A stretch of 64,000 bases of DNA from Polytrichum commune (lineage: Eukaryota; Streptophyta; Polytrichopsida; Polytrichales; Polytrichaceae), in contig OX485805.1 of the NCBI GenBank assembly GCA_950295325.1, positions 6,882,501 to 6,946,500 of the forward strand. The letters run 5' to 3'. Every line of letters begins with the position of its first letter. The stretch's first letter is position 1. Below are positions 9,032 through 64,000 of the stretch, piece by piece. The translations under genes and the position numbers were made by a program. Below the pieces are notes generated by a model that saw only the letters and a list, made by a program, of their open reading frames with translations, was not told the DNA's origin and searched no databases.

Positions 9032-9113
9032 GTCGCTTTGGCCGAGTGGTTAAGGCGTGTGCCTGCTAAGTACATGGGGTTTCCCCGCAAGAGTTCGAAT
9101 CTCTTAGGCGACG
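9032..9113 (+). tRNA. tRNA-Ser (anticodon GCU)
   Basis: The sequence folds as a class II tRNA. There is a 7-bp acceptor stem (GTCGCTT with AGGCGAC), a GCC/GGC D stem and an anticodon stem TGTGC/GTACA. The loop CTGCTAA gives anticodon GCT for AGC/AGU codons. A long GC-rich variable arm and a perfect AAGAG/CTCTT T stem with loop TTCGAAT follow. There is no intron and no encoded CCA, as expected for a plant nuclear gene. A box (TGGCCGAGTGG) and B box (GTTCGAATC) are internal. Base 9113 (G) is the discriminator. Confidence 0.97.
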
Positions 9114-9149: not shown

Positions 9150-9226
9150 GACCTTCCAATTGACAACGATAAATGAAGTTGTTATTTAATATTTTGGAAT
9201 AGAGGATGCGCTTGGCCATCTTGTTA

Positions 9227-9818
9227 CACTAAATATATCAATTAGTGAGGGTGGTACTAAATCAAGTCACATGCACGATCTAGCCAAATCTCAAAGATAC
9301 TGAGGGCTGAAGGTGCTACTGAGTGACACTAAATGCGTGACTACAATAAATTCTATGTTCATTTACCATATATTCAATAGAAAACGACAAATAAAGTTTT
9401 TATTTAATATTTTAAATATTTTGGAATAAAGGATGCGCTTGGCCATCTTGCTACACTAAACATACCAATTAGTGAGGGTGGTACTAAATCAAGTCACATG
9501 CACAATCTAGTTAAAGCTCAAAGATACTAAGGGTTGGAGTTGCTATTGAGTGACACTAAATTCATAACTACAATTAATTCTATGTCATTTACCATATATT
9601 TCAAGAAATTAGTGTGCTTCTGATTAGGGCGCGTTGCATGCTTGTCAATGATTAGTGCCAAGTGTTGGTACTTTAAAGTGAATAGTGCCAAGTGTTGAGG
9701 TGAACAATGCTTCCTAGTCTTAGATCGAAGATCTTTTGGTGGCACTAATTCATAGCTTAAAAGTAATTTAATATCACCTTCACTAATTTCCCACCCTCAC
9801 TTAGTGGTATATTTGGTG
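9227..9818. mobile_element. CACTAAATAT-ended MITE-like element with an internal tandem duplication
   Basis: The left end CACTAAATATATCAATTAGTG and the right end (reverse complement CACCAAATATACCACTAAG) are imperfect inverted repeats followed by a shared AGGGTGG block. A segment of about 230 bp is duplicated in tandem: TTTTGGAATAGAGGATGCG at 9193 and TTTTGGAATAAAGGATGCG near 9420. The ends resemble the nested element at 7977-8342. I found no convincing target duplication, so the exact borders are uncertain. Confidence 0.5.
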
Positions 9819-16108: not shown

Positions 16109-17464
16109 CAAGCTATAAATTTGACACCCTAGCCAAATTTCCAGGGGACACCCTGTCCCAAATTTTGGGTGTCTCAAGGACACCCTGCTCCAATTTTTGG
16201 GTGTCCTCATAAATTTCTCTTAAAATTTTTTTTTTGGTCAAAATAGGTACAATTTTGAAAAATATATAATATCATTTCAAAATCTCAATCAAAAATCAAA
16301 AAATCACTACATATCATAACTTGCAATGCAAATCAAACCTACAAGCGGCGGCCTTTCATAGCACACCACTTTACCCATACTTGTTCAAAGTCAATGGCCT
16401 CTATGGGGATTTTTGCCATTGCAACTCTCATTTGTGCTTCCAAAGTCTCTAATACCAAACTACACCGTAAAGTAGATTTAATATGATTTTGAGTAGAAAA
16501 TCCTCTCTCACAAGAAGCTGTACTAGCAGGAATTACAAGAACAGCTTGCCACAACTTTGTCATATGAGGATATCTTCCAACATAGTCCAAATTGGAAGAA
16601 TAAACCATCCAAGCTTGGTGCATTTTAAGACCACCACATGAAATATGAAGTGTATCCAAAAAACCTCGAAGCTCTGATTTTAAACCACACTCATCAAAAA
16701 AATTCCCTCCATTAGTGCTAATTGGATTAAAACTCACCTCAAAAATTTCAAAATAAGCTTGTTGCCTTGAAATGAATGGTTGAAACTTGGACAGCATTCA
16801 AATGCACATATCTTTGCCAATACAAATTCAAACTGAGCAAAACAAACACCACAAGAAGCGTAATCTTCATAGCTTTCCAAAAATGTAAAGAAGTGTGTAA
16901 TCGGATAAGAACCGACCTTACAAATTGCAAAACCAAATCGATCAATTTCTAGAACTAGGCGACCTTCATATGCTCATAACTTTGTCTATACAACTCGGAA
17001 TGAAGCAAGACTACCACCAAAAGAAGCGAAATTTCAATAGCTTTCCAACGATATGCAGAACACATCAATCAGATAAAAATTTGATCTAAAAACCTCGGAT
17101 TCAGATTGTGGATCTTAGTTTAGGGTTTAGGGTAAGAGATGCTACGAAAAAGACACCATTTGATAAGTGTTGTGAGTGTGAGTAGGGTTTTACAAAGAGA
17201 ACCTAGTTCCCATGGTTCTCATGTTTATTTCATCATTTTACATTTAAACTTCCTTAATCCAAACTTCATATGTTTAAGAACTTCATATGTTCAGGGCCAT
17301 AGGCCCTACAAGTACAAGGGACACCTTAAATTTTTTTTGGGTGTAAAAATGACACCCTTGTAGGATTTTTGGGTGTCCTCGAGGACACCCAAAATGAGAT
17401 TTGGGTGTCATAGGACACCCTAGGAAGCAAAATACACCCCCCAGGGTGTCAATTTTATGCCTTG
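16109..17464 (-). mobile_element. hAT transposon, internally decayed, bounded by 8-bp target duplication
   Basis: A 1356 bp element flanked by CTAGAGAG at 16101-16108 and 17465-17472. The terminal inverted repeats start CAAG(C/G)(T/C)ATAAA and share TTGACACCCT. Both ends are packed with GACACCC/GGGTGTC motifs in both orientations, like the subterminal transposase-binding repeats of other hAT elements. A minus-strand frame (16339-16797) keeps the end of the hAT dimerisation domain. The element is much shorter than an autonomous hAT, so most of the transposase is missing. Confidence 0.88.
16339..16797 (-). pseudogene. hAT transposase remnant (C-terminal dimerisation domain)
   Basis: The 150-residue frame contains LWQAVLVIPASTASCERGFS, TQNHIKSTLRCSL and LETLEAQMRVAMAKI. 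This is the conserved hAT C-terminal dimerisation block with its ASxxxCERxFS signature. The N-terminal BED finger and most of the RNase H-like catalytic core are absent, so it cannot be an active transposase. It lies inside the hAT element with matching ends and orientation. Confidence 0.85.
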
Positions 17465-28714: not shown

Positions 28715-30560
28715 GATTCAATGAAATGGGCGGATTTTTGTGTATTAATCAACAAATAATTGAACCATTTATTGACTTGGAAGAGGACTATAATAGTGGG
28801 GAAGACTCTGATCGTAATCCATGTAGTGGAGATTGTTTTGCTAGTTTTACCCAACCCCATGAGTTGACCCCCATATTGAATATGTCGAGAATGGCGACAT
28901 TCAATGAGATGTGTGGGGATCATGGAGGATCCATGGTGTCCCCTAAGATATTGGTAGCTAAAAGTTAACATCTTAATGATCCAAGGGCATGGATAGTGGG
29001 AAGTCCTAGCGGGACCAAATCTAGTAATAATGATGGGCTACCCCATGAGCCTAATGCAACTAGGGCTAGTGCCGATCACGTTAGTACACTAGGGGGGGCA
29101 TTCTGATGATTTCACCCCACTTTGCAACACATATTCACAAAACATGTGCCAGGTTGTGAAGGGCATTCGAGAGGGTGTTGAGGTGGCCAATATAGATGGT
29201 ATATGTTATGAATGCCCAATTTTAAAAAATTGGGAAAAATTGGGAGTTGGACAATGACCAACTAGAGGCAACCCTTCTTGCAGTTGACAATGGGGCTCCT
29301 ATGAATATAATACCACAAATTTATGGAATACCCACTGTGTCTTTGTGGGACCATCATGGTATTGGGAAAATTATAGGTAGGAAATGTGGCAAGTTGGGGG
29401 TGCTTTCATTTGAGGAGGATAATGAACCTATAGATTGGATTCTCAAAATGCGAAGATAGGCCGTCCAATTAATTGAGTCCATGTCGATTGAAGGTGGTTG
29501 AGATCACCCATGATTGTGACACCCCCTTCACAAAGGGAATTCTTGGACTGGGGTGGGTAAAGTGGTTTCAAAATTAGGAACCCCAACATGACACTTAGAG
29601 TGGTACATGGTTTAGAGCAAAGCAAGGTGAGGGGTTTATGCCCCAAAAAATTTCATCTTTATATGATAACTTACATGCTATGTACTTCAGGCACAATTAC
29701 CCAAACATTCACATTTGGAATTGTGATGAGTCCAAGGCCCAAGCAAGGCATAATGGCAATGGCTGCATTTTGGGTAGGAGAGAGATACAGAGTGTGTACA
29801 TTGTAATGCATGACAAGAGTAAATGATTGTATGTCTTGTCTTGCATTGATGCATCATGTTCTTGCATCCCAAGTTTTAAATATTTAAGGGTAGGTCATTT
29901 AGGTAGAATTTCATAATTAGGTGCAAGGAGGGGGGCTTTTACGGCCATGTAAAAAAAACCTTGATGGGAGCACTATTCAACGAGTGGATTAATCAATTTT
30001 TACTTCACATTGGTAGAATGTATGGCATTTCGAATGAGAACCGACATTGACTCGAAATGGATGGGCACAAACTCCCATGCCACCCTAGATGTTGCACATG
30101 CTACCAGGATAATAGGTCTAGATGCCTTAATCATTCCTAGTCATACATCCCATGCCACCCACCCCCTGGATGTGAGTGTTTTCAAACCGTTTCAAATGTC
30201 ATTAAGAAAATACTAGGATTTTTGGACCTTAGGAACAAGGGGAAGGGTGTTGCATAAAATGACATGTCATAGTGGATGTTGTTGGCGTTGAAAAAGGGCA
30301 TGACTTCAACGGATATTGGATAAGGGTTTTTTGTCATAAGTATTTGGCCTTTGAATGTTCAACCATGGATGATAAAATGGGGCCAAGTGAAGTGTTTGTT
30401 AATTTTGCAGTTGAGGTCAAATGAATGAGGAAGAGGTGGGTGATAAGTAGGTGGAGGAGGTGCTTGGAGAAATGATAACAAAAACTCAAAAAATGAAACT
30501 TAATATATGATGGCACTGACAAATGAGGATGGAGACACAACACATGGTGTGGAAATGAGG
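28715..30560 (+). pseudogene. pogo/Tigger-like (CENPB-type) transposase remnant
   Basis: Three blocks of one protein lie in order in different frames. At 29250-29460 a psq-type helix-turn-helix reads LEATLLAVDNGAPMNII, YGIPTVSLWDHHGIGK and LSFEEDNEPIDWI. At 29640-29830 the start of the DDE_1 catalytic domain reads SSLYDNLHAMYFRHNY, then HIWNCDESKAQARHNGNG (the Asp of NCDES is the first catalytic residue). At 30060-30216 comes HATLDVAHATRI, then PSHTSHATHPLDVSVFKPF, the classic end of the DDE_1 domain. Frameshifts and stops separate them, so it is dead. Frames at 28.7-29.0 and 30.2-30.6 kb may be its N and C termini. Confidence 0.8.
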
Positions 30561-31573: not shown

Positions 31574-33822
31574 AAGTCTCCAACTTCGGTCATGGTATCA
31601 CTAGGAAATCAAAAGTTTCATGACACATGTCCTCGGTTTTGAGTGCTAAAGTGAGAAGGAACTCGTCTAAAAATGAGCAGTTATGATAGACACTAGACAT
31701 TGGTAATGTGTTCAGGCCAACTTTTGGCTTCAAAATTCACAGTTTCTTCAATTTAAGGAATAAAATTACCGAATATTTTGTAGTCCTCATGATTTCTATC
31801 TTCCTACATGGGATAAATTCGCATGGCTTATACATCTATAGATTTGGCGCAAAATCTCTCAAGTGATCAATTATGGGCGTCTCCACTCTAAATTGGGTTG
31901 GTTTTAGGTAATGAAGGTGGGCTTCTCTAGATTTGGACAAACCAACCCATACACTCATTCCTTGTTGGATGCCTAGACCCTTGCCTCCAAGGAACCAGTG
32001 TACGGGTTGGTTCGCCCAAGTTGAATCTCTATATCTGCAATCACATCATGCACCAGGCCTAGGAGTGGATAAGAAAAGACTATTGGTTTGGACTTTGAAT
32101 ATCCAGAAAATATTATACTGCCGGTAAATTTTTAATGTATTCTTCATACATATTATGAGCCCAAAGGTTAACAAGAATTTATTTTTTATTTTTTATCAAC
32201 CACGTAGTTATGTGTACGTGCCATAGCTTAAAGTGTTGTTTTAAGCCCCCTCTACCTTAGCGTGAGCTCTATAAGGAGATTAGTGTGGCCCACAGTAATA
32301 GGCCTAATATATAGTATAGTAGCCTGGTAAGGCAGGGATTACGTAATGTTACATGTGCTTTGAGACCACTTTACTGCCACCTTTGATCCCCGAAATAATT
32401 CTTGCACATGTCTCCCGCTTTGCGGCCTTCCCTGTAAATCTCTCCCCCTATTTCTGTCTGCACAACGTCATCTTCTGCGTCAATAACCTGTTTCTAGCCT
32501 TGGCCCAGACTCGGGATGTTGAACCTGAACCAGTATATGCCAATCATGATGCACTTGTTGAAAACTTTGATGCACAGTAACTTCAAGATTCAAAATTACA
32601 ATGAACGTAACAACGTAACTTTAGTGCATGATTCAAGCGGCGGTAAGTTCGAGTTTCTCAAAGTTATCTGGTGCCAAAGGATCTTCCGGTACATGGATAC
32701 CACTTTTTTCGTGGGTAGCACTTTTGATCCTAAGTTTGCAGACATGAAATGATCCTATCAACACAAACAACTTAGATATTGTTCATCACCGCCGAAGTTC
32801 AATCTTATGTTGCAGCATGTTGGGTCGGGTCAGTAAGGCTCAGAATCTGACACTGATGAGTCGGAGGGTTAAGCGTGTTGATGGTCTGTTGATCCATGAT
32901 GTTTGTGGAGAGCTTTGCAGGAAGTAGTTGTGTGAGGGGATCGGTATTTGTGGTCTGTGTGCAGCAGATCTTATTAAGTAGTGACAAGTAATTGGTCGGC
33001 CGTGGGAAATCAGTACTGAGACTGGAGTTTGGGGCAGATGCGATAAGTTTTTGCAGGGTGAGGAAGCTGGGAGTCGCATGTGGGTTGAATCTGGATTTGG
33101 TGTCGGAATCTTCTCTTCTTCGCTCCGCACGTGAACTCTGGTTACGGTACTAGGTGCTGCAGAAAGAGTACTACTAGTGCAGTAAGCTCTTGTAAGTTGT
33201 CTTTCGTAGCTTCTGAGATATTACGCTAGACTCGGGTGACTGGCATCAAGGTTCATCAAGATCACCATCAGGATTCAGGGTTAAGTTAGCCGCGAGCCAG
33301 AGAGCATCTGGCATCTGGAGCTCCAAACACCGCCGCTGTGGCCTGCACAAGGTTTGTAATAAAGATCAGTTTAGTTTTCTGTGTTGAGATCATTATGTCA
33401 AACTGTGGATGACCACCGACGCAAGTTATACAGAACTCGAAGTTATATGGTCGAGGAGCCCGGGGGATGGGGGAATGGTGGTGAGAGACTGAGTTTTGAA
33501 AGCGATTCAGAGAAAAGCTCGAAGATTTGCATTCCGGTGCACAAGACCGTGGTTGTAGAGATTCGGGTTCAGGAACTTGTCACCTTTCCATGGAATCTCA
33601 TGAGAAGCACATCACATCCAGGGATGAACAGCATCATCATGAGCAGCCACTCGTGAGAATCTAGAGTCGAGTGGCAACACGCCGCAGGTTTTAGGGGATC
33701 GGAGGAATTGTTGCTTAAATTATTCAAGTTTGAGGTTATTTTGTATGTAGAGATTCCATCGGTACTGCCAGGGTGCATGTTTTAATTTTTTAATTTTGTT
33801 GCGGATAACTTCAAAAGTAAGA
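31574..33822. other. Region upstream of the GRAS gene
   Basis: No repeat or protein family recognised. From about 33.0 kb the composition becomes more balanced and continues into the GRAS frame, so part is probably promoter and 5' leader. The open frame at 33381-33656 has no family features and I read it as leader. Several upstream ATGs exist, but without a transcript none can be called a uORF. Confidence 0.4.
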
Positions 33823-35820
33823 ATGGGGATGGTGGCGGCATTCTCCAAGGGGGACTCGGAGTTGGACGGAGACTTGGCATCGATTTTTCGGCAGCGGCTC
33901 TCGAACCCGCAAGCAGAGTGGGATACTAGCCCATCGCCTCAATCTCCCTTCCATTTCTCGGACCGGACCGCGGAAGCTGAAGGCATCAGCGACGCATTCA
34001 ACTTGCAAGGGAAATCACCGGAGCTTCAACAGCAACATTACAATTTGCCAGGGTCACACTCATCGTCTCTCCGAGCTCCGGATCCAGCTCCACCGGGGTC
34101 ATCGGAGCTCATGAGGGCCATCTCCGCACAGAAGCTGGACCAAGATGCCATGTTCCGGTCACTTGCGCAGAGAGCCGGAATCCAAAGCTATACCTCCCTG
34201 CAGGAATTCCGACAACATGTGCAAGAACAGGAGAGTCAACACCAAATTGTTCCAAGTTTGCCTCAGATGCCACACACTGCACCGCATGAACGGCAATCTT
34301 CCACCTGCTGGTCCACCACCACCCACAACGCTCATATTGCCATCTCCGGCGATGTGAACAAGCCAGTAGTAAGTGACCCCAATCCATCCCAAGTCTTGAG
34401 AGACAGGTTTATGTTTGGACCAAGGCTGATGCCAACCTTAGTACGAGACTTTTCTCAACCACTTAACAACAACAACAATCCTCCGATGCAGCTCTGGAAC
34501 AGAGAGGATGGCGAGTCGATGCAGCATGGAGGTAACTGGCCTGTGAGTAATCTCACTCAGGCAGAGTTAATGCCAACCTTTCCCCAAGTGATCAGGGCAG
34601 CAGACACCGAATCTTCTGTGGTGACAAACTTCAACTCGGTAGGGTTGGAGCAACAGCCACAGCATCGACATCAACAACGTCAGCAAGCCCTAGACAGTAC
34701 AGGAACATCGGGGTTGCAGCTGGTGCACTTGCTTCTAGCATGTGCGGAAGCTGTGGAGAACGAGCAGTTAAATCTTGCGCAAGTGATATTGGTTCGTCTC
34801 AATACCTTACTTGTTCCCCGTGGCAACACGATGCAGCGTCTCGCAGCGGTGTTCATCGAAGCGCTGACAGCGAGGATAACCAATTCTGCACACAGGGGTC
34901 AGTTTTACGGTCTGTGCAACAACAGCCACGTAGCCATCCTGGAGCTTCTGGAATCGTTCAGTGTTGTGTATGATTACACCCCGCTTGGCAAGTTCCCGCA
35001 CCTGACCTTGAACCAGATTCTCCTGGATGCCGTGGAAGGTGCGTCGAATGTGCATGTGGTTGACATAAAAATGCATTGGAGGGGAATGCAATGGCCAGCG
35101 TTCATCCAAGCTTTAGCGTTGCGTCCGGGAGGCCCTCCGAGGTTGCGTCTTTCCGCCATAGCCGGTATGGAAGACCTGGAACATTCGAAGGAGAAGCTCC
35201 AAGAATACGCACGCAACCTCGGAGTTCCATTTGAATTTTGTGCCATCCTTGAGAAGTCACCTTACACCATCGAGGACATCGAGGTTAGGTATGGCGAGAC
35301 GGTGTGCATCAACTCCTGTGCACATTTCCACACACTTCTTACCCTCGGAGAAGAGAGGTTCCACCAGCTGCTCTGTGAGCTTCGGTCACTAAACCCTAGG
35401 GTGCTTGTTCTCGCTGAGAATGATGGTGACCATAACTGTGATTCGTTCCTCCAGAGATTTGTAGAGTGTCTCAAATACTACTCGGCTGTCTTCGATGCCT
35501 TGGATGCATCCGTCCCCCCGGGGTCATCTGCTCTCTTTGCTGTTGAGCAGTTATTCTCTGGACAAAAAATTCGCAACATCATCGCATGTGAGGGCTCTGC
35601 TCGCGTCGAGCGACATGAGCGCATGGCGAGTTGGAACCGAAGATTTCTGTCTGCAGGCTTTCGATCCTCCCCTCTGAGCAGCCGTGCTATCAGCCAGGCC
35701 AGATTGTTGCTCTCCCTCTACTTCCATTGCGGGTACACACTGAGCAGTGACCACTACTCCATCGTTCTTGGCTGGAAGAACATGCCTCTGCTCGGTGCTG
35801 CGGCCTGGAAATCGTCGTAA
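33823..35820 (+). CDS. GRAS-family transcription factor, single exon, DELLA-like C terminus
   Basis: An intronless 665-residue frame. I start at the first in-frame ATG (33823). A second in-frame ATG follows two codons later, and the frame upstream opens only with a non-ATG codon. Residues 1-295 are low-complexity (Gln, Ser, Pro, Asn), as in GRAS N-terminal regions. No DELLA or TVHYNP motif is visible. The GRAS domain runs from about 297 to the end: LVHLLLACAEAVE (leucine heptad I), VHVVDIKMHWRGMQWP (VHIID variant, 410), ALRPGGPPRLRLSAI, GVPFEFCAI (PFYRE start), IIACEGSARVERHE (RVERHE at 594) and LGWKNMPLLGAAAWKS (SAW end). RVERHE and the AAW end recall DELLA/SCL3-type proteins, but the subfamily is unresolved. 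GRAS proteins act in the nucleus as transcriptional regulators. Confidence 0.95.
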   Translation: MGMVAAFSKGDSELDGDLASIFRQRLSNPQAEWDTSPSPQSPFHFSDRTAEAEGISDAFNLQGKSPELQQQHYNLPGSHSSSLRAPDPAPPGSSELMRAISAQKLDQDAMFRSLAQRAGIQSYTSLQEFRQHVQEQESQHQIVPSLPQMPHTAPHERQSSTCWSTTTHNAHIAISGDVNKPVVSDPNPSQVLRDRFMFGPRLMPTLVRDFSQPLNNNNNPPMQLWNREDGESMQHGGNWPVSNLTQAELMPTFPQVIRAADTESSVVTNFNSVGLEQQPQHRHQQRQQALDSTGTSGLQLVHLLLACAEAVENEQLNLAQVILVRLNTLLVPRGNTMQRLAAVFIEALTARITNSAHRGQFYGLCNNSHVAILELLESFSVVYDYTPLGKFPHLTLNQILLDAVEGASNVHVVDIKMHWRGMQWPAFIQALALRPGGPPRLRLSAIAGMEDLEHSKEKLQEYARNLGVPFEFCAILEKSPYTIEDIEVRYGETVCINSCAHFHTLLTLGEERFHQLLCELRSLNPRVLVLAENDGDHNCDSFLQRFVECLKYYSAVFDALDASVPPGSSALFAVEQLFSGQKIRNIIACEGSARVERHERMASWNRRFLSAGFRSSPLSSRAISQARLLLSLYFHCGYTLSSDHYSIVLGWKNMPLLGAAAWKSS

Positions 35821-39203: not shown

Positions 39204-40442
39204 ATGTCAGGAAGGGGGGGGGGTGTGCCTGCAACGGGTGGGAGGACCAAGAAGGGCATGAACTTCTGTCCGGAGGAGGAAGAACAGTGTTGCTGAAGTT
39301 TTATGCATACTTCCACCGATGCCAGGAGAGGGATAGGGCAGAAGAATGCACAATTTTGGATCAATGTAGCAACGCACTATGCTAGACACAAACCCGAGGG
39401 AGGAGCTGATCGTCCTGCTAGGTCTCTAGAGACAAAATGGTCTGACATCAAGCAATCTGTCGCCAAGTTCAGTGGTTGCTATCAGTCATTGAGAGATCTG
39501 AATGAGAGTGGGAAGAGTGAGGATGATTTTGTATTAGATGCTATGAGCTTGTACAAGCAAAAATGTGGGAAGGCATTTGTTCTAAAACATTGCTGGTTGT
39601 TGTTAAAGAGCTATCCTAGGTTTGCGGCAATATTTATGGGCAAGCGAAAGGGTGGAGGGTTTGATCCGCCCTCAAAAGAGGGGCTGCCTGTTGATCGTCG
39701 CGATCTGCTTTCTCCGAATGGCCAGGCTCCCTCCACCGAATCGCCACCTGCACAGACAAGACCACAGGGTGCTAAGTCGGCAAAAAACGAGCATGCACAA
39801 AGTAAGGGGAAGGAGCTAGCTTTGCGCGCTAATGCAAAAGCTACAACTGACTTTGCTGCAGCTACATTGAAGAAAGCTGAGCAAATTGCTCAGCAAAATG
39901 CTTTTAGCTTGTTTACAGTAGAGGATAAGAACATTACCTGTGACCTTGCTAGACAGTGGTTCCACCTCCGCAGGACCCAAGAGCTTGCAAAGCTCAAGGC
40001 ACAGGTTGCTGCCGAAGTTGCTGCCTCCAACGAGTCTGCTCCTCCTCGGTTTGGAGTCTGCTCCAACACGCCTGTTGCACCTGCACCTGCACCAACACAA
40101 GGGTTAGGGTTTAGAGGAGATTTGAATGAAGAAGATGATGCTGATGATGATTGTGAAGATGATTCCTCCGACTTGTTTGCAGACAGGAGGAGGGTAGCTG
40201 ATCTAAATGCTTTTGGGAATGACTTCGGCCAACCAGCTTCGGATCGTGATGAGGATACAACCACCATCCTAGATTCTCAACCTAATGACTTCGCAATTAA
40301 CCCTCCCCCATCACAACGTCGACGACTCTCTGCTGATCCTCATGAACTCTTTGGCCAGTTTTGGACCCCTGCAATTCGGGAACAGTTTGTACCTAGGCAA
40401 ATCTCCCCTCCATCCACATGGTTGCAGGGCTTAAGAATCTGA
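39204..40442 (+). pseudogene. Harbinger-type SANT/Myb (NAM-associated) ORF1 with one in-frame TGA
   Basis: From the ATG at 39204 the frame reads through GRTKKGMNFCPEEEEQCC to a TGA at 39294-39296. It then continues unbroken for 382 codons to the stop at 40442. The N-terminal half matches the SANT/Myb-like DNA-binding proteins of PIF/Harbinger elements and their plant relatives: GQKNAQFWINVATHYARHK, GGADRPARSLETKWSDIKQS and KFSGCYQSL. The C-terminal half has the NAM-associated pattern with an Ala/Lys-rich helix (KATTDFAAATLKKAEQIAQQ). An acidic run (EEDDADDDCEDDSSD) and a Ser/Pro tail follow. The stop falls where such proteins often have Arg, so CGA to TGA by CpG decay is likely. An internal ATG at 39303 could give 379 residues lacking the first SANT helix. 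Confidence 0.8.
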
Positions 40443-46906: not shown

Positions 46907-48080
46907 TTTCTAAGATGGGAGAAAGCGCGAATGAAATTCTCCCATACTGAGATTTGTTATGATCTTTGGGTTAAGCTACTGGAGTTTTACAACTCCTTCC
47001 GTGCCTGAATGCTCAACCAAATTGATGCTCCACCCACTTCACATGAATTGGTTGGTCTGTGCAAGAATCCGGAAGATACGATTTCCAAATGGGTGGCTTG
47101 TGGTGGGTAATTTAATGAGTTCAAATATGATTGATTCAATTTAGTGGGGAGTTTATGGGTGCTTTTCCTAAGTACACATTTGGGTTGCAATACTTCGCCC
47201 TTATTAAAGTGGATCCAAATGACTGCAATGCATAACCCTCCATGGCCTTTTTGGGATGGATGGCGCAAGTTCAGGTGGACAAATTGTCATATGGTTGTGC
47301 TGAGACCCAATTCAATTAATTTTTTGGTAAATTGGTTAAATTAATATTTGACATGGCACGTTGGTGATGCCCTATAGTTGCTCTTTTCTTGGAGTACTTG
47401 GCTAAATTTGGTAAGAAGAGGATTACGAATCAAGGGGCTCCAAAGAAACTAATCCCCAAAAATAGTGGAACGAAATTCCTCCTTCAACCTCCCCCAAGTG
47501 GAACATTATTTGGCACAAAAATAAGGCACAAAAGGAAGCGGTGTTCCTTTGGTTAGTTATCCATAAAGTAGTGGCAGTGAATAAGTGATGCAGTTGGATC
47601 TCAGTGGAGATTGAGCAGAGTTGCCCTCATTGTGGCTCACAATTTGTGGAGTCAGTGGAGCATAAATTCTTCAGCTGCCCATTGGCTCAACAAGTGTGGC
47701 GCTATGTAACTAATATCATGTGGCAACTCTTTGCCCAAAAAGGCAACCTTGGTCCTCGAAAATCCTCTTGTGATGCAATGTTTGTTTGATTAGCCTCTTC
47801 ATAAGCTGTTGTATTCCTTTAGCCAAATTTGGTTTTTCTTGAAAAATAATCTCCCCTAGATTATATGGTGACAGAGGAATGATCTTCCTTTTAAACACTT
47901 TGCATTGGCAAGTGGAGAAAATGCACCAAGTGGTGTTGGACTCTTTGCTTGACTATGGTAGACTTGAATGGCAAAGGACTCTTCAAGATTTGGAGAAATC
48001 TCTGAATGTTGCCTATCAAGATGTGCTTAAGGAATTTGATGTGGTGTGTCAAAGGTCTTATGATGACTTGTGATGATTTA

Positions 48081-50003: not shown

Positions 50004-53000
50004 TCAATTGCGGCGCCGCCTTTTCTGGCTGAGATTTTGAAAGAAATCATGGATGTCTGCACTTGTCACTGTTCTCCCAGATTCACCAAAAGGCTCCTGT
50101 TTGGTACAGAAAAAAAAAGCACTACTGAGTAGACAAAGATCTGTTTTATCAAGAAGGCTGAACAAAGATCAAAACCAACAACAATTAAGAGAAACATTTC
50201 ACAATACAATGAAACATAAACTGATGATTACCAGAAAGGACTTGAGTTCAGATGTCATGTCATTGAGGCCATGTAGGAGTTCAATACGTTGCACATGCCC
50301 CAAATTTTTCATGAAATCTGATCCAGCTCCTTCTACCAGAGCACGTGACTCTTCTCTCTTTCGCTTAGCTGAAGCTTCATACTCCTGCAATCACTTCCAA
50401 GTGAAGATCAGGAAATGGACAAAGTCTCCCAACATTTGAAAGGCAGATTCTGGCCTACTCTTGGATTCTAAAGGCGTACTTGGTTTCCACAAACTCATCC
50501 ATAAGAGAGAACACAGAAAATGAGTCTTTGATGTCTACAACATGGTGGATGATCAGAAAGTACTTACCAAGAAGTGAGTACTAAGTAACTCTAGGCTTGT
50601 GAGTTAATTTTGGACAAGATTAAAGTTGTATACATGTAGTTCTATGGACAGGTCCTATGATAGAAGACGTAGAAAATAGCTTAGGTATGTATCTCTTGCT
50701 TCGACCACATAGTATAATTGGGTTGTCATCATATGCTTGTAGTTTGTTCTCCTGAATACTTGTTTTGCAACGAACATGTATTAATGGTGCAAACAGTACT
50801 CTCATATGCATCATTATCTCTAGACAAATCTTTTATCTAGAATTTATTAACTCCTAGTTCAAGACTGTGCAGCCAGCTTAGTGCTACTACAAAAATCATA
50901 CCTGCAAAGTATCCTCTGAATCAAGAAGGAAGTTGATTCCCTTCTCCTCATACATGCTCAAGCAGCTGGGGCATCGGCAGAGTTCTGTCCGCCAACTTTT
51001 GGTCAAAAAGATTGCAAGGCCCGGCTCCAGAGTAGCAGTTGGAACATCCTCCTTCAACACACAATGATTCCCATTTGTAGCAGCTTCATGGGAAACATCA
51101 TCATTCTTTACATCAGTTTCAGCTTGCTCCGACTTGCAAACATCTTGCACTCCATTTGAGGCTCCATTTGAGGACTCACACATTGCAGATTCTTCCTTTA
51201 CATTTCTCACATCTCCATTTGCATGTGCACCTTCTCTTTGACCTTCGGTGAGATCTGAAGGAACTTGTTTTTGCGTGCCATTTCCTGTGTGGGGTACATG
51301 CAGGTGTCAATCTAAGCATTTACAAATACATTCATTGGTCAAGAAAAATGTCCCTAGTTGAGAGGTACAGGTCAATGTAGAGCAAATCCTCATACCTGAC
51401 ATATTTACTCCCTCCTTATTCACAACGGGGTCTATCCCTGTAGTTGGTGCAGACATCGGAGCAACTACATATCTCTGGTACTTTGACACAAATGAGCATT
51501 TAGGTACACAAGCTGGGCATATTAACTCATCAAATGTTGGTTCTCCTTCCTCATCCCTTGGAACCTGGAGCATGATAATTTCTGCTTTAGAATTCTGCAG
51601 AGTGGGATGTGTGCCACCATATATGACCAAAGCAGCACCATACAAATTTGCATATTGTATAGACACGTGCCAATCGAAGGTATGCAGATCCAAGTCTCTT
51701 TATCTCACATTCCATGTGCAATTTCAATAGGACATCCAAGAGATTCTTAAACATTCTACTTCCGTATCTTATGTTAGGACACTATGTCGGTTACCGTCAA
51801 GAGGTGAACAACACATGAATTGATCAGAAACTGTGTAAAGAATGCCTTCACATAGCCACAAGAGTCCAAGCTTCTTTTCTTTTGTTTTTAATTGATCAAT
51901 TCTTCTATATATACATGAGAATTGTGCTACAAACATCTAACTCTCAAAATCATTGAAATATGACTCACCAGAAGTGTTGGCGGAAGTCCAAGATGACACT
52001 CATGAAACCAGTCCTCACAGATGCAACATTGCAGCATCTCACCCAGGTCCTCACCCTCGGGATCAGGGTATGCCCGGTGACACGTGCAATATAATCCTCT
52101 GTAATTCTGGTTGTACACATTTTCAGTATTCTGAATGTCTTTGTTGGCTTGCAGCTTGCAAATGCCCTCCCCATACTTGGAGTTCCCACAATCACAACGG
52201 AAATGCCGCCTGGTCCACAACTCTATAACCTGCAAACATACTTTTTCTTGTATCAGAGTGGAAAGGAAACCATGAATACTGTGATCACTGATCAAACTCG
52301 CACAGACTCCCACAAATGTTATTAAAATTGAACCTTAAAGCAACACCACAGGTAACTAAAGAAATGGAAGATTCTACTGAATGACTTCAGTCCATTCATA
52401 GGAAACAAATCAGACGCCTTAAGAATTTAGCATCACCTCAAATGCCAGACTTATGCAATATTTGAGCATTTAAACCCTGATCTCCACCATGCCTCGCATG
52501 AAAGAATGTGTATTATCAGTGAGAGAGGAAGGATGAAGGTAATAGGGTTATCCTCTAACTCAACATGACTTTTGGTCGAAAGTTAGTTGTTTTGCATACA
52601 ACACCTTCCATGTTCGGTAAGTTTTCGGTGCACGCTTGGAGGCAGTGTGAAGGTTTGAATGAAGAGGAACATTCTATATCAGTTCATTGGGGGTCAAACT
52701 CATGTTGGCATGCCAAGAGGTGCTAAGATAAGTTTTGGGCCTCAATAAACCTCATGAAATAGGTTGCTCAACATTCAAATTCAAACACTACTTTGAAGCA
52801 TGCACATTCACAAGGGCAACGAAAGAAATTTATTGATATTGTATGCAAATAAACCAATGGAAAATCATCAGGGACCATCTCCCAACGAACAGCCCCATTG
52901 AGTTATAGGATTGCTCTAATGTGATCTGAACTTGATGATCAGAGGCATAAGGGTGACGCACATCATGATTATCGTGGCAGGATAAAGAGCAAGCGGTGCA

Positions 53001-54433
53001 AAAACCGCCATCTCCACTGGGTGTACATGTCAGACATGCAAACACTGCTTGCCTCTTCATGTAGCCCTGATTGTATGTGCACTCCTTGCCTTCATCTCCA
53101 CCCAGAACCAAGTCAGCTTCCTGCAAAAAGAAATCACTCGATACAGTCTTCTCATCAGAAATTTCACCAAAAACCTAAAAAACTGAGTTTGCATTATTAC
53201 TTTAAGAATCACAAGTTCTGCGTCTTCCATATCAACACACAAAATTTCCACTTTCTCTCCCCTTACCATCTTAAGCTCAAAAGCATGTATGCTTGTAACG
53301 GACATAAAAAGCCGGCAGGAATGAAATTGCACCAGGAATGAAGGGCGATATCCCATAACTTATCATTACGATTACAACACAAAGTCAATAGATGCCTTGT
53401 CATCAGTAATTTACCAATTACCAAAAAAGCAGAGCATGAATTATTACTTTAAGAATCACAGGTTTTGCGTTTTTCATATCAACCCAGAAAATGACTCTCT
53501 CTCTCTCTCTCTCTTCTTACCACCTTAAGCTCAAAAGCATTTACGATTGTAATAGACATAGACAGAGTGGCAGGAACAAATTGTACCAGGACTTGAGAAT
53601 GGCGACATCCCATGATTTATCATATCCATTACAACACAAAGTGAATCGATACAGTGTCTTGTCATCAGAAATTTCACCACGCAGCCAAAAAGCTGAGCAT
53701 GCAGTATCACTTTAAGAATCACAGGTTTTGCGTCTTCCATATCGACCCAGAACTTCTCTCTCTAAGCTCAAAAGCATGTATCCTTGTAACGGAAAGCGGC
53801 AGGAACATAATTCCACCAGGATTGAAGAAGGGCGACATTCCATAGTTCATGAATATCATTTCCATTACTACATAAAGCCCAATTCCACACAATTTGTTTC
53901 ACATTTTGTGCGGCAGTTATTTGTGAAACAAACCCTTGGCCGCTAAACCAAGCGCGGTGAACCTCCACAGATTACTATGGAAATACTCACCGTTTGAAAT
54001 GTGAGAGTATAAACTCAGAAAGTAAGATAAAAAGAGAAGCCTAATTTTTTTTGTCACTGTACTCATCGTCACCATCATCATAATCTCTAATTACCTCCAA
54101 TTGTGACGAACAAACATTGCGATGCTCACATACACTAAATCTTGTCATCCTCCCACATGCCTTGTGCAAAACTTAATATCCCCGAAGAACAATTTAACCC
54201 GAACAAAAGCTCCATACCGCACCATTAAAACCCCGTACATCCATCCATAACCCATCAAAGAGAGCGGCACAGAAACTCACTAAACCCTCCGCTGACATAA
54301 TATTACATGGAGGTTTTTAGGAGGGGGTGAAGGTTGAAGTTCGCACCAATTCCTCAGCCTCGTACTCTTCAATATACTCGGCCAAAGTGCCTACAGGCTC
54401 CTCCTCCTCATTTGTGACCTCCCTGTCATCCAT
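50004..54433 (-). CDS. UBR7: UBR7-like protein (UBR box plus PHD-type finger), 7 exons
   Basis: Exons, in transcript order: 54347-54433, 52962-53120, 51969-52229, 51396-51564, 50902-51284, 50232-50384 and 50004-50097 (start within one base). All use GT-AG and join into a frame of about 434 residues. Exon 1 is short and acidic, ending EYIEEYEAEEL. The UBR box (about 43-100) carries ECTYNQGYMKRQAVFACLTC, FCTACSLSCHDNHD and, across intron 2, HFRCDCGNS. The PHD-type finger (about 128-190) reads YCTCHRAYPDPEGEDLGEML, QCCICEDWFHECHLG and ICPACVPKC. The C terminus has LGHVQRIELLHGLNDM, VTSADIHDFFQNL and a basic end (KRRRR). Length and domain order match plant and animal UBR7, a putative E3 ubiquitin ligase; Arabidopsis has a PHD-annotated homologue. 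All key Cys/His are present, so it looks functional. Confidence 0.94.
53135..53880. repeat. Tandem repeat in UBR7 intron 1, three units of about 250 bp
   Basis: The string CTTTAAGAATCACA recurs at about 53201, 53448 and 53711, with surrounding text conserved: CTCAAAAGCATGTA, GGCAGGAA, CCAGGA and CATCAGAAATTTCACCA. The first unit starts within about 20 bases of the exon 2 acceptor. One unit has gained a TC microsatellite (53494-53513). Confidence 0.85.
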
Positions 54434-55084: not shown

Positions 55085-56030
55085 AGCTGCCACAAAAAGT
55101 TGAACCTTGAAGAAATGGTGATGCCAACAATAGCAGAGGCAAGGATTGCAGAAGAAACATGGCGAAACAGAGGCTGATAACTGGTGTCTTCTTCTTTGGT
55201 TTTTAATTCTCCTGGCTTTGGCTTTGTTGGCCTTCTGTCTCAAAAATAAATAAATAAATAAATATGGTGTATCATCAGATAGGGTAAGGAAATGAGCTAT
55301 GCATGTAAGCTTAGTGGTTGTATTCAGTAGGTGTGCAATGAAGGAGAAGCTCATTGGTATTTCAGAGTTCATAGGTCAAGAAGGTAAATCTCGAAGAAAT
55401 AATGATGGCAACAAAGAGCATAGTCAAGGGTTGCAGAAGAAATGCTAAAGTAGAACCTTGTAACTGATGTATCATCGAGTAGGCTAAGGAATTCAGTCAT
55501 GCATGTAGCGGTTGTATTCAATAGGTTATGCAATGAAGGAGAAGCTCTTGAAAGTTCAGATTTCATGCGTCAAGAAGGTAACTCCTGAAGAAACAATGAT
55601 GGCAACAGGAGCATAGCTAGGATCGCAGAAGTGAAGCAGAACCTGGTATCTGATGCATCATCAAGTAGGCCAAGGAAATGACCTATGCATGTATTCAATA
55701 TGTATGCAATGAAGGAGAAGCTCTTGAAATTTCAGATTTCACAGGTCAAGAAGGTAAACTCTGAAGATATAATGATGGCCACCAGATCATATTAGCAAGG
55801 ATCGCAGAAGTGAAGCAGAACCTGGTAACTGGTGTATCATCAAGTAGGCTAAGGAATTGAGCTATGCATGTATTTAATGGGTGTGCAATGAAGGATAAGC
55901 TCTTGAAATTACAAAGTTCCTGGGTCACCTGCTACAAGAAGGTAAACCTTGAAGAAATAAGGATGGCAACAATTGCATAGGCAGGGATTGCAGATGAAAC
56001 TTGCCATAAGCAGAACCTGTATCATCAACT
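55085..56030. repeat. Tandem array of about five ~190-bp units upstream of OFD1
   Basis: GTCAAGAAGGTAAA followed by GAAGAAATAATGATGGCAAC recurs near 55374, 55570, 55745 and 55936. An older unit near 55090 makes five. Each unit also holds GCAGAACCTGGTAACTG, TATCATCAAGTAGGC and ATGAAGGAGAAGCTC. The spacing is 175-210 bp after discounting the LINE-tail insertion in unit 1. The array ends about 65 bp before the OFD1 start codon. Confidence 0.88.
55188..55264 (+). mobile_element. 77-bp LINE-tail insertion inside the tandem array
   Basis: CTGGCTTTGGCTTTGTTGG, then CCTTCTGTCTCAAAAA and four TAAA units, flanked by TGGTGT at 55182-55187 and 55265-55270. Other array units show the uninterrupted text TAACTGGTGTATCATC, confirming the insertion point. 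Confidence 0.85.
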
Positions 56031-56094: not shown

Positions 56095-56610
56095 ATGGAT
56101 GTCGAGTCCAGTGGGGATCCGGAGCTGTCAAAGGAGGCGTTGCGCAGACATCTGTTTACTTCCCTGCGCTCCAGTGGCATTCTCGACTCCCTCAAGGTCA
56201 AGCCCTCGTAATTTTTAATCCTCTAAAGAACCTTAAAATTCGTGTTGCCGCAATCTCATCATGCGCGTTATGAAGATGGACCAAATCAAATAGATACTAA
56301 GGTTTTTTCCGTCAAGAAAAGCTCGACCTCGATGCAAAAAATAGGGTTAGTCACAGAGCAGTTTCTAGGGATTTGTAAAAAGATGACTTACAAGGATTCA
56401 TATATTACTGTGCTGCTGATAGCATGCTATTGGAGCGTATTGGACCAAGAAAATTCAATTACACTTTATGTCATGGAACAATTGGCCATAAGTATTTTCA
56501 GTGCCTTCAATCTCCTTCATGTACTCCAGGTCACCAAAATTGACCGGATTCTGATCTGGAAGAAACGATGCTCATGGTGGGCTCTCCTATTTGAGGCACC
56601 AACTTAATCA

Positions 56611-56650
<40 letters not shown>

Positions 56651-59600
56651 GTTTAATTGATTCCAGAGAAATAAAATCGTTTTGTTAATGATGTATTGAG
56701 TCGATGCTCGATGCCTAGGGTTTCTTTGTTTACAGTGTGATGCTATGTTTTTGACATTTTCAATTTTTTCACAAGCAGAGCCAGCTGAGAGCTCGCCTTC
56801 TTGAGCACCTGAAAGCCCATGACGGATATCTAATTGACCACAAGAAGGAGAGTAAGCCCACTTTGACAGAGAGGTTGCTGAGAAGTTTGTTTCTGGATTA
56901 TCTGCACAAGAATGGGTTCACTTTCACCATATCTGTGTTTTTGCCTGAGAGCCAAATGGTCTCGCATCCACCTTTTTCCTATGATGAAATGCTGGAGCTT
57001 CTGCACTTGGACCCTTCTTCGAAATTCCACCTTCGACTGAAACTGGTGTGTGATTCTTCAGTCAGATCTCAGCAAGTGTTGATTTTAATTAACATGCATG
57101 CACGAATTTGGAATTCTTGTTTCTTTTATTTTGGTTTGTAAGTGTCGGTCTTTGAATACTACCCAGTCATGTGACGGTTTGGAATATTCATCAATCTTCG
57201 TTCTGTGAGTTGCCTATGGGAAGGCAACCCTAACCTGGCAGCACAACAATGAGACACACACCTGGGAACAGATGAGAGATGGAAGAGCAAAGAAGTCTTT
57301 GGAATTAGAGGGTGCTCTACAGAAATGATATCATATGCAGATCAGTCCTCTTTAAAGCCTGCATTTCCTATTTGTATTGCTCAGCTAGAACGGTTATCTG
57401 CTTGTACCTGTGAGGCACATTTGTGTACTCCTGAAGGTGCGTTTGCACACAAATACTCAAGTGGTTGTGGTTGTGGTTCAGGCCCACTTTCAGCCACAAG
57501 TACAAATTTTTTTGCTAACACACAACTACTCTAGTAGTTGAATAGTGGATTTGACCTCAATGATCGTCCCTCCTATTGGTGCAATCCGTGAAGTGGAGGC
57601 AAACAATGTATGGATTCTAGACGAAAGTCTGTCTAATCCTACAAATCCTCTCCCATGCTTTGGCCTTAATGTTCTCTCCTGGTGCCACCTAGTAACTACA
57701 ATCAAAATAGAATAAAGAATGTAGACTACAACGATTGCACTTACTCCCAACTAGACCTTGTACTGTAGTTGGGAAAGGGGAGTAGTTGTGGTGGTAATAA
57801 TTGTCATCAATGCACCTTATCCCTCCTTGTCCCTCAAAAATAGAGCCAAAGGAAGCAAACTACAAATACCAATACTTTGTTTTCTTTGGCTCTAGTTTTG
57901 TAACTTTGTGTTTAGCAATCTACTAAAAGAATGTCTGACATTGGTGTAACAGGCTGGGGAGAGGAAAGTTTGCCTAGCCCACCAATTGGTGCTGGTGTTG
58001 CAGCAAATGGCAATGCGGGGTAACAATTCCCAGGAGGTTTCAACTCAAACATCTCAACCTGAAGCAGCTTGCAAACAACCTACACAAGCATCCTGTCTCA
58101 GTACCATCAATTTTGGTACCGTTGTGGAATCTTCAACCCTGAATTCGTTAGCCAAGAAATTTCATAGATTGCAAACATGTACAGATCCAGCATGCAATTT
58201 CAAGGGCTTTCTGGTGGTCAATTACAGCAAATTGGCTTCCACCCCTGAATGACATTCACAATGTGAGAACATATAGGGACCATGCAGCTACAAAGAGGTT
58301 GTGAAATCAACAAAATCTAAACAATAGTTATCTATGGGATAATATTCAGTGTAAGGGCATGACACATTCAAATGCATAAATTGCCTAGACCACTACTACT
58401 CGAGGATTTACATGCATAGATGAGACTTTGCTCTTGGGTCCAGAGTGCAATCACGTCTGCAAAAATCTTCCAAGAATTGTAGGTTGTTGTAGATATTAAC
58501 TCCTCAAGGTATACATCCTTGACAATCGCACTATAATATCATCCAAACCAAGTATACAAGAGCATGAAGGAAATGCAGTATTCATAAGACGTGTAGATTA
58601 TTGATCTGCAGAACCTTTTTTTAGTGATAGATTTTGAAGTGGGGTGCTACAGAGAAGGCCATACAGGAGGTTGATGATGCATACATCCGGAAGAAAGTAG
58701 CTCATAGTGCTCAAAGAGTGCTACCATACCAGTCCCTTGAGGATCAAATTACCATACTACACAAGGAATTTGATGCCCGTGTGAATGCTGAGGTGGCAAT
58801 GCAGGTTAGTGACCTGCCATGTCGAAATTGATGTTGTAATATGCATGTGATGTGGATGACTAGCTATTGGTACACAGATTTATATAAAAATTAAAGACTT
58901 GACATGTCATTGTTAAAACCATTCTGGGGAAGGATCACAAGTCATTGTTCATCAGAATGGAACCACATTTATTTTGAGGCCTGAACCATAGATATAATTA
59001 GCAGATTTGTCAAACATTTTGTTTCACATACAAACGGTAGAGCTCTATGGATGTTTTCCTTCATAGATCAACCTTGAAATTCAAATTTGAATTGCATAAT
59101 TTCTTTATAACTATAATTATTTAATCTGAACATGGACAGGTCAGTCGTATTCGAGACTATGAGATAAGTGCTGCTCGGATGGACGAGTCTGCTCGGTATC
59201 GCAGGTGTGTGTAAAACTGTTTTTAACTTAATTTTTATATTGCGCTTATACTGCTATGCTCTTAATACGTGTACATATTCTCAAGCTTTTGAGGACATCT
59301 TCGGGCCATCTTCACTCTTTCATAAGATATGTCGCTTTCTTTTGTAGACAGCTATCCAGGGATCGAGAGGAATTGGAAGAGATTCATAAATCCCGCATGG
59401 ACCGGATCAAAGCCCGGGAAGAGTCTTTACTTGAGCGTTTACTTGTGAAGGAAAAGGTGCTAATTTCAGCATCATCTGATATGTGCTGAGTCTTCCTTCA
59501 GCATCAATTCACTTTTTTGTTAAAAGTCCCATTAAATGCATCATCTAGTGTCTTAAAATTTGATGTTGCTGTTTATGCTCAGATCAATTATAGATGGTGC

Positions 59601-62600
59601 TACGAATAAGAGAGATTAGTTTCCTTTATGCAGGCCATTGAGGCATCAGCCTTTGAACAACGGCAGAAAACTCTCCTTGAGATCACTAGTCTTCGGGAAC
59701 GTGAGGACAAGCTCACAAAAATGAAAGAAGCACTGGTAATGTGTACTATCTTATTCATTACCAAAATATGTCAATCTTGGTAAATGTGTGTCCATCTTAT
59801 TCTTTGAGTATTAAGCAGGAAAGGCGAGAAGAGAAACTTGATGAGAGAGAGCTCTCCCTAAGGGCAAAGGAAGAGGAGGTGGTACACGCGCGTAAGACTC
59901 TCTATGCTCAAGCTGATGATATAATTGCCTCGTTCGTCCCGTCCCTTTCCCTAACATCCCTCTTTCTGTGTGAATCACCTCACAATAACCTGTTTCTTGA
60001 ATCTTTCTGACATTGGGTGTCCCTTGAATTGTTTGAATACTTTGGCAATGGTAACCATAGTATGTATTTCATAGACCTGTCATGCATACAGTATCAATTC
60101 CAGAATTATCGAAGTAACTTCATATGTGCAGGGAAGCTTGAAATTTGACAAAGTGATAACTGAAGAAATGCAGGGTTCCTTCATAAACTGCAATGAATTG
60201 TCCTCAAGCTGCAAGCAATTATTGTAGGTGTATTTTGCCATCAACCTTAGGGATGATTCTGGATTTCAGACGGAGAACAGAACTGGAGGAGCAGTACAAG
60301 GAGCTTCGTAACCATCTCCATCACGAGCACATAATTCTTGAAGGTATAAAAAGTGTGCAACTCAGCTTCATACATTTACTCTGTAATGATCATATCTGCT
60401 CAGTGTCGAATGTATCACTACACTAAAAAAGGATAGCGCCTATGTTTGTCAACAGTAGCAAGAATTGTATTCTCTTTGCCCGCAGGTTACTCAAATAAGA
60501 CGTGGACTCTTTCTAACAGCCGTAACCGGGGCAACTTGATCACCCATTGGTCCTCCCCTACTAGGCTCGCCTAGCCCCTCGATACCCACAACTTTTGAAA
60601 TGTGGTCTTGCAACAATGATCATACCTGCTCCCTGACATATGTTTGACTATGCTAAGAAAAAGGATAACGCCAGTGTATGCCAACACTAGCAAGAATTAT
60701 ATAGTCTTTTCGCCCACATGCTAATGCCTCAAATAAAGAGGCAGACTCTTTCTTATAGCTGTATTTTGAGCAACTTGATCATCCATTGTTCCTCCCCTAC
60801 TAAGCTCCCTGAGCCCCTTGATGCCCACAACTTTTGAGATGACCAGTGGACCCAATGACCTCCACAATGATGATTGGGTGGACCACAGTGGGTTACATTA
60901 GCATGGCTTGGTGGAGAATGGAACCCACACCACTTGCAAGGTGGAGATGAGTCCCCACCACTAATGCTATTGGCTTCATGTTTTTCTCACTATACTCAGT
61001 TTTATCAGTGTCTAAGAGCTTGTTTGACACAAAATGTGCAATTTGACTAATCTTTGTGTCCGTCGCCTTGGAATCAGCTGAGAGAGAGAAGATGAAAGAT
61101 GACAAAATGGCCATGGCTATAGAACTTGCCGCATCACGTAGTGACAAGGAGCTTATACGTGCCCTTCACCATCGCATCATATTTGACGAAGAGAAACGTC
61201 AAACTTCTGTTGAAACCATCAAAGAGGTAGTAGGAACTATGTTACACCGGTATCACCTATTGGTGTGTGTTACCATTTGAAGTTACACGTTGTTATAACT
61301 TTTTACTGAGAGGATCATTTTCTACCAAGTAAGTTAAATCATGTTCCTTGATGTGCATACTAGCTATTTATGTTATTGGGGTAAACAATGATGTTCTCAT
61401 TATAGAGCAATAGCAACGTGCTAACTTCAATGGTGACCCACACTAATAGGTGATGTTGGTGCAGCTCCAAATTGTACAGTATCTTATCTCTGGCTCATTT
61501 GAAACATCTATAAGGAACTAGTTTTACATAGTGAGAATGTCAACACCTCATACTTTGAAAGAAATTTTGTTCTACAGTTGGAGGAAAGGCTTAAATGGCT
61601 AAGTTCACAACCTCCGAAGTTAGTTGATATGCAAGAGCAACAGTCTATGGTTCTCAAAAGGTAGGTTATAAAAATTTCAGTAATTTACATGTCTGTTCAC
61701 TCTACGAGGCGCACATATTCGCTTGCATTTATGGAGAATTTCCTCAATACTAGTGTACTATCGTGCCAATTCCTCAATTGAATTGAAAATCTAAACATCA
61801 ATGTTGATTTTCTTGCAATGTCATTGTTCAGAGTGTTGCAGAATAGAAGCCCTTTCACACTTAGTAGTGAGCTGTAGATCTTTTATTCATTTATACATCT
61901 CAACGTCGAATCTTACATAATTTCATGTTGGTGGTGCAAGTTTTGAGTGGGAGGAGCGATTGCAGGCAGCACAGGCTGAGCTTGAGCAAGTGCGGATTGA
62001 TCGACAAAAGAGTGAGAAAGAGTGCAAGTCACTTGAGTACAATATTCAACTTCAGGTGAAATATCTGGATGGCTAAAGTTCCATCATTTGTAATTTATCC
62101 TTGATGTAATTCCACACCAAGAATAAGTCCGGATTGAGTCTGAATTAGCTTAGAGGTATACCATTCTTTTCTGGGTAGACCTCACTCCAAATAATATTCC
62201 ACAAGTTCCTTGATTGATCCTCATGGTTGACTTTGAACTTCTAATTTACAAGGATGTGCATACATCATCATCCAATCATTTATTGGCATTAGAGTATTTT
62301 CTGTTTTCTAAAAATCTAGATTTTATTTACATTAAGTGATGTAATTAATAGATAAACCTCATTAGTTCAACCATTTCCTTGAATGATCCTTCTTGATCTT
62401 TCAAACAACCTCTTTTAATGGCTTCCAGTTTTTTTCAGTTACTATAATTTGAACTTTTGTCTGCTGTGGTGTGTGTAGGGGGTGGAGCTGGAAGCATTGA
62501 GAAGCCTTCAATTAGAGTGGGTTGCAGAGCGCAAGAGCCTCATGATCACTATTAATCAGCAAGAGGAAAACCTTCAGAAAGATGTATTAATTTATCACTC

Positions 62601-64000
62601 TCTGGCTCCAAAACATTCATCATTTCTCAATTAGAATTGAACGGAAGTCTGCTAAGAAGAAAAGATAAAATGCTCTAAAGGCACATACAGTAGAGATAAA
62701 TGACCTCAAAAGGCTGAGCACCTCTGAGAGCTGATGCTTTTGTAATTTTAGGAGTCTGACCTATCCAATGTGGAGACAGTGTTTTGAGCCATGTCTGCAT
62801 GATTCAAAAATTGCATAGTTGATGACCATTTTTGCATTATGCTATTCTTCCGCTTTTCCTCCTGATTTTTTTTATCTAAATCCTCCGGTAACCTGGATTT
62901 GTCTTTGCTGTTTTTTTTTCATATCCAGGAAACAAAGCTTCGACTGATAGGTGCAGAAAAAGAGAAGTGGACCATGCAACACAAGAAGCTTCTAATGAGA
63001 ATTGACCAGCTTGAGACTCTCAATAAGGAAGTGGTAGGTGAAAACCTGTTACGTAATTTGCACCATTGAACCAGGAAAATCCATGCTACTTTCTATATGG
63101 TGCTGATATTGTAACCTGCAAAGTATAAGAGGTTAGAGTTGGTTACAATCAGGATAATTATTGGTTCATCTGGCCTTGACCGCATTGCAGCAAGAGGAGA
63201 ATGTTAAGCTGGTTCATGAATTGGAGGTGCTTCAAAGTCAGCTGAAAATTGCTGAGAATGAGCTTCTTGAGACCACTATGCACTTGAAGCAGACGCAACA
63301 AGGTATGAAAAACATGTCAACTTTTTTGGCAGCATTTTTTAAGATGGATTTTACAAAGCCCAGGAGAAGAGTTATTCATAAGTAGCTGAAGACCATATTG
63401 TTTGTGGATTACTTTTTATTGATTGTCACAATTTTGTGCTTGCATTTTCAGTTTCTGGACTTCTTGAAAGTTCTGTCTAGATGTATGAAAGTTGTGGTCT
63501 GGCTTTGTGATGTATTTTGACTGTCATCATCCACTCACAAATGTTTCTAGCTCTGGAAATCGAGCGGCTGCAACACTGCACATTACGGTCCCACCTGAAT
63601 ACTCTGAATCCCCCATTCAGGTCTGTTCAAAACAAAGAGCTGTTATAGACTTCATGTCTGAAATTGGTGGTCTTGATCTTAATGTTCGAATTTGAAGCAA
63701 GAGATTAGGACTGAAGTTTTCCATGTTTTTCTGTGATCAGCTTTTAAAATCAATGATTTAATACCCAAGTCCCAGGTAGAAAGAGTTGGCTCACCGTGTG
63801 ATGTTTTCTGGACCAGAATGGATGTTGAAGCTTTAACACTTTTACAAGGAGCTGGTTTGAAAGGTAAATACAAGGATAGGACAAGAGTGAATGACAAGTC
63901 ATCGTGGCCAGACATGGAATGCAGAGAGAAGCCAGCTCAAAAAAGCTCGAATTCTAATGAGGTGATACTTGTTCATTACCCAGTTATCTCTTTTCCTACT
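56095..64000 (+). CDS. OFD1: OFD1-like centriolar protein (LisH plus coiled coils), 3' end outside window
   Basis: Exons read: 56095-56196, 56779-57045, 57953-58213, 58631-58804, 59140-59204, 59348-59456, 59634-59735, 59819-59931, 60270-60343, 61078-61226, 61578-61660, 61941-62055, 62479-62583, 62929-63033, 63191-63302, 63551-63620 and about 63776-63961. All phases agree up to 63620; the last junction is unresolved. At least 730 residues are encoded. Exon 1 gives EALRRHLFTSLRSSGILDSL and exon 2 SQLRARLLEHL. The LisH motif (about 65-92) reads RLLRSLFLDYLHKNGFTFTI, then SVFLPES, followed by FSYDEMLELLHLDPSSKF. This order is that of the OFD1 N terminus. From exon 4 on the protein is long, charged coiled coil. 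OFD1 acts at centrioles and basal bodies in ciliogenesis. Confidence 0.88.
56611..56650. repeat. GT/GA compound microsatellite in OFD1 intron 1
   Basis: About nine GT units followed by about ten GA units. Confidence 0.92.
60382..60855. repeat. Two-unit tandem duplication in OFD1 intron 9, about 232 bp each
   Basis: AAAAAGGATAGCGCC (about 60425) and AAAAAGGATAACGCC (about 60657) begin parallel stretches. Both share AGCAAGAATT, CAACTTGATCA, CCTCCCCTACTA, CCCACAACTTTTGA and ATGATCATA. Confidence 0.8.

Follow-up and report, generated by a model that had tools for sequence, protein, structure and literature searches.

At the 3' edge of the window, the whole 64,000-nucleotide stretch of DNA that we analysed, lies a split gene that most probably represents a land-plant orthologue of OFD1 acting in the basal bodies of developing sperm. 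We give this reading a probability of about 0.88. The encoded protein begins with a TOF helix and a LisH motif, after which come ~470 residues of coiled-coil-like sequence. Its assignment to OFD1, which a preliminary description of this DNA had proposed, is well supported by the N-terminal alignment score, the conserved residues and the intron positions, and we regard the gene as OFD1 rather than FOP, FOR20 or TONNEAU1 on the strength of these comparisons. The result supports the view that OFD1 is an ancient gene of the basal body which at least one land plant has kept, with introns at positions also used in humans.

Gene model and surroundings

GT-AG bounded exons were joined from the ATG at 56095, the first ATG downstream of an in-frame stop, up to the window edge, giving a continuous frame. 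Two alternative models were obtained, both with consistent phases and no stop. Model A has 18 exons and 727 codons, and model B has 17 exons and 714 codons, with exons 8 and 9 of model A replaced by a single longer exon 8. The features are:

56095..63961, plus: OFD1-like gene, visible part in model A, with GT-AG borders, consistent phases and no stop codon
56095-56196, plus: exon 1, N-terminal TOF helix through GILDSLK; 3' border matches human OFD1 c.111
56779-57045, plus: exon 2, SQLR, LisH motif and SVFLPES; Pfam LisH_2
57953-58213, plus: exon 3, TQT block (human Q162); 3' end provisional
58640-58804, plus: exon 4, which with exons 5 to 7 forms the first coiled-coil part with the EQRQ block; 3' border matches human c.654
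59140-59204, plus: exon 5, in the first coiled-coil part
59348-59456, plus: exon 6, in the first coiled-coil part; 3' border matches human c.828
59634-59735, plus: exon 7, last exon of the first coiled-coil part
59819..63961, plus: all exons from exon 8 onward, coiled coil and then the beginning of the non-coiled part
59819-59878, plus: exon 8 of model A; exon 8/9 border provisional
59819-59931, plus: exon 8 of model B, replacing exons 8 and 9 of model A
60132-60223, plus: exon 9, in model A only and missing from model B
60270-60343, plus: exon 10 of model A
61078-61226, plus: exon 11 of model A
61578-61660, plus: exon 12 of model A
61941-62055, plus: exon 13 of model A
62479-62583, plus: exon 14 of model A
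62929-63033, plus: exon 15 of model A
63191-63302, plus: exon 16 of model A
63551-63620, plus: exon 17 of model A
63817-63961, plus: exon 18 of model A, fits in phase; donor provisional

Three borders are provisional: the 3' end of exon 3, for which there are several possible donors, the exon 8/9 border and the donor of the last exon. Model A also implies a suspiciously short intron of 46 bases after the exon at 60132-60223. With exon 9 taken 3 bases short, the introns of model A have a mean length of 335 bases; the longest is 907 bases and 17 of 17 are under 1 kb. On the same basis the GC content was 0.459 in the joined exons versus 0.378 in the introns, and that of the window is 0.412. The gene had been described as intact with 17 readable exons. 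A count of 17 or 18 exons free of stop codons bears this out, but the gene extends past 64000 and its 3' end is not covered by the window. The word intact therefore holds for the visible part only.

The N-terminal helix, the LisH motif and the coiled coils are all present in the spliced frame in the order previously claimed, as is the wording GILDSLK/SQLR at the exon 1-2 junction and SVFLPES. The heptad signal was 3.0 sd above shuffles from residue 211 to near the end (469 residues, 1.1% proline), and no such signal was found in the N-terminal 210 residues (z -1.2 versus shuffles). Pfam LisH_2 scored above its cut-off of 27 bits on exon 2 alone (27.7 bits) and just under it on the longer hand-spliced N-terminus (25.4 bits). 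A match of the coiled coil to Pfam DDE_Tnp_IS1 (16.4 bits, cut-off 24.1) was rejected as composition. Sequence searches of the PDB matched no solved structure, either with the hand-spliced N-terminus (E up to 1) or with exon 2 (E up to 10). Relatives of exon 2 were sought in viral contigs and in prokaryote genomes, where none of 36 and none of 177 pattern matches, respectively, were confirmed. AlphaFold gave a weak model of exon 2 alone, with a mean pLDDT of 65.8 and a pTM of 0.48.

Elsewhere in the window, a 674-residue open reading frame at 33796-35820 encodes a complete GRAS domain (Pfam, 348 bits), and a 379-residue open frame at 39303-40442 encodes a NAM-associated C-terminal domain (35.5 bits). 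The minus strand carries UBR-box exons at 50007-53174 (zf-UBR, 30.2 bits); with the exon pieces that follow, this gene is presumably similar to UBR7. Transposon remnants include a hAT dimerisation domain on the minus strand (16339-16797) and a zf-RVT reverse-transcriptase zinc-binding piece on the plus strand (47589-47786). Transposase-like pieces at 29226-30213, with a DDE_1 score of 21.5 bits just under the cut-off of 22, we take to be of the pogo type. A tRNA-Ser (GCT) gene at 9032-9113 is followed by a tandem repeat of 227 bases in 1.8 copies (9188-9600). Two further tandem repeats have units of 247 bases (2.4 copies, 53138-53752) and 179 bases (3.2 copies, 55319-55910), the latter ending ~185 bases upstream of the OFD1 start codon. 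The GRAS, UBR-box and NAM-associated genes and the transposon pieces fit a land plant.

Sequence identity and shared intron positions

Residues 1-165 were locally aligned with reference sequences entered by hand. Human OFD1 scored 160 (z 22.5, 300 shuffles), compared to 84 for FOP (z 11.5), 87 for FOR20 (z 11.2) and 74 for TON1a (z 7.8). The comparison with OFD1, FOP and TONNEAU1 that had been proposed as a check, here made with the N-terminus and extended to FOR20, was won by OFD1 at about twice the score of the others, all against hand-entered references. Only the OFD1 reference was compared with printed residue numbers. It agrees with 32 of the 33 in PMC11818881, the miss being Q622, and with 95 of 99 entries selected from the mutation table of PMC9303915. 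The four misses in that selection, at 352, 357, 358 and 434, do not touch the region on which introns were mapped.

In the N-terminal block, 47 of 145 aligned residues are identical to the human OFD1 reference. The block 206-345 has 29 identical residues of 122 and scored 126 versus 61 for the reversed sequence. Past residue 345 the OFD1 score was 110 versus 88 reversed, which is little beyond coiled-coil composition. Four OFD1-like patterns occurring in order were found in none of 2000 protein shuffles; single patterns are not rare, with frequencies of 0.7 to 10.5% among the shuffles, and one more match to the first lies elsewhere near the N-terminus. The animal-conserved OFD1 residues reported in PMC11818881 were assessed for human positions 31-287, with D436, Y437, L638, Y961 and W1012 left out, and 10 of the 12 residues assessed are identical here. 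The two exceptions are H81, replaced by Y, and Y89, replaced by F. Conservation of Y89 is described in PMC11818881 as specific to the OFD1 LisH, so the second substitution counts mildly against OFD1.

Intron positions of human OFD1 were taken from the mutation table of PMC9303915. Among the first seven introns in the window, three fall exactly at human c.111, c.654 and c.828, and another lies one codon from c.381, beside an alignment gap. Two map to c.719 and c.930, where there is no human intron at exactly that position, and one could not be aligned to human OFD1. The human introns at c.312 and c.412 have no counterpart in the gene described here. Using 10 human positions, up to c.1055, at least three exact matches were obtained in 1 of 100,000 random placements. 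These common positions support descent from a common ancestral gene.

Basal bodies, plant distribution and swimming sperm

Animals and protists depend on OFD1 for the formation of cilia. In Paramecium, basal bodies reportedly need OFD1 for docking and for their distal assembly, and FOR20 is reported as its partner (PMC5374602). In T. brucei, recruitment of OFD1 to probasal bodies is an early event, and cells depleted of it are left with very short new flagella (PMC11190437); Marchantia and Arabidopsis are among the proteomes of that study. By analogy with animals, Paramecium and trypanosomes, OFD1 is likely to have a similar location and function in plant sperm. The TOF-LisH part, together with FOR20, would direct OFD1 to the newly formed basal body. 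The coiled coils would form dimers that help to build the distal end and the transition fibres, the basal body would thereby dock at the membrane, and the flagellum would grow. Expression confined to male gametogenesis, as the preliminary description expected, stands as a prediction.

An OFD1 orthologue might instead work mainly outside cilia, for instance in general microtubule function or in autophagy, across many tissues. Roles of animal OFD1 outside cilia have been reported (PMC11818881), and 21 proteins with a ciliary profile are retained in plants without cilia (PMC3268115). We consider such a role improbable, given that the table entries of PMC3193505 examined include no flowering plant and that such genes reportedly correlate with basal bodies (T. 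brucei study, PMC11190437). A role in sperm basal bodies is preferred.

In PMC3193505, 72 homologues of OFD1 are reported across 31 species. OFD1 is listed there in green algae (Chlamydomonas and two Micromonas), one moss (Physcomitrella patens, XM_001755713), a ciliate and animals. Because a moss OFD1 is already in print, OFD1 in a land plant is not new. Flagellar genes are reported to have largely disappeared from Gnetum, conifers and angiosperms (PMC9023351); OFD1 goes unnamed in the main text of this paper and in those of PMC3268115, PMC10425847 and PMC4092220. From the published distribution of OFD1 and flagellar genes, a host with flagellated sperm, such as a moss or liverwort, is a reasonable inference. 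The proposal that the gene would mark centriole-gene retention holds in reduced form: it is usable as one more possible marker of plants with swimming sperm, alongside the published flagellar genes, and its novelty is less than had been claimed.

Mean intron length is ~30.8 kb in Cycas (PMC9023351) and 5,555 bases in Ceratopteris (PMC9477723), and the moss Pohlia nutans is reported with 500-base introns and 41.5% GC (PMC9247546). Since the introns of the gene described here are short, a cycad or a fern with a large genome is less favoured than a bryophyte. A bryophyte, or perhaps a lycophyte, is the likelier host as judged from one gene, a small sample in which intron length and GC serve as hints.

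Physcomitrella and Selaginella are reported to be without known transition-zone complex proteins, and non-seed plants without Y-links (PMC4092220), which makes the retention of OFD1 mildly interesting. The gene described here nevertheless has the OFD1 N-terminus and ancient intron positions. One tentative and rather doubtful idea is that OFD1 could be what is left at the centre of a reduced docking machinery, in plant sperm flagella that would be without the usual transition-zone gate.

Comparison with known systems

OFD1, FOP, FOR20 and TON1 have a common TOF-LisH start, and TON1 is the member of the family known from non-flagellate plants (PMC6070722). A protein of the TONNEAU1/FOP type would organise cortical microtubules and division planes and would also occur in plants without flagella. 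The gene described here resembles this type in its TOF-LisH N-terminus, its alignment scores with FOP and TON1a are well above those of shuffles, and G31, L40 and R41, three of the 12 residues assessed above, match FOP too in the N-terminal alignment. The OFD1 score is nevertheless about double. In addition, Pfam FOP_dimer stayed below its cut-off of 29.4 bits on the hand-spliced N-terminus (16.7 bits) and on exon 2 (18.6 bits), whereas the hand-entered Arabidopsis TON1a reference clears the cut-offs of both LisH_2 and FOP_dimer, the latter with 30.3 bits. TON1 and FOP are not known to have a long coiled coil, which also counts against this assignment, and we regard it as very unlikely. A decaying OFD1 copy is equally hard to credit: the 3' end beyond the window and three unclear splice borders, one of them implying the 46-base intron, would allow for a pseudogene, but the coding sequence is free of stops for over 2.1 kb, phases are consistent in both models and conserved residues are retained.

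FOR20 has the TOF-LisH N-terminus in common with the gene described here and aligns with it at a score of 87, but is a small protein of ~20 kDa (PMC6070722), compared to more than 700 residues already in the visible part of this gene. The closest likeness is to human OFD1, in which the TOF helix, the LisH motif and the long coiled coil follow one another in the same order, the gene described here differing in its longer linker after the LisH motif.
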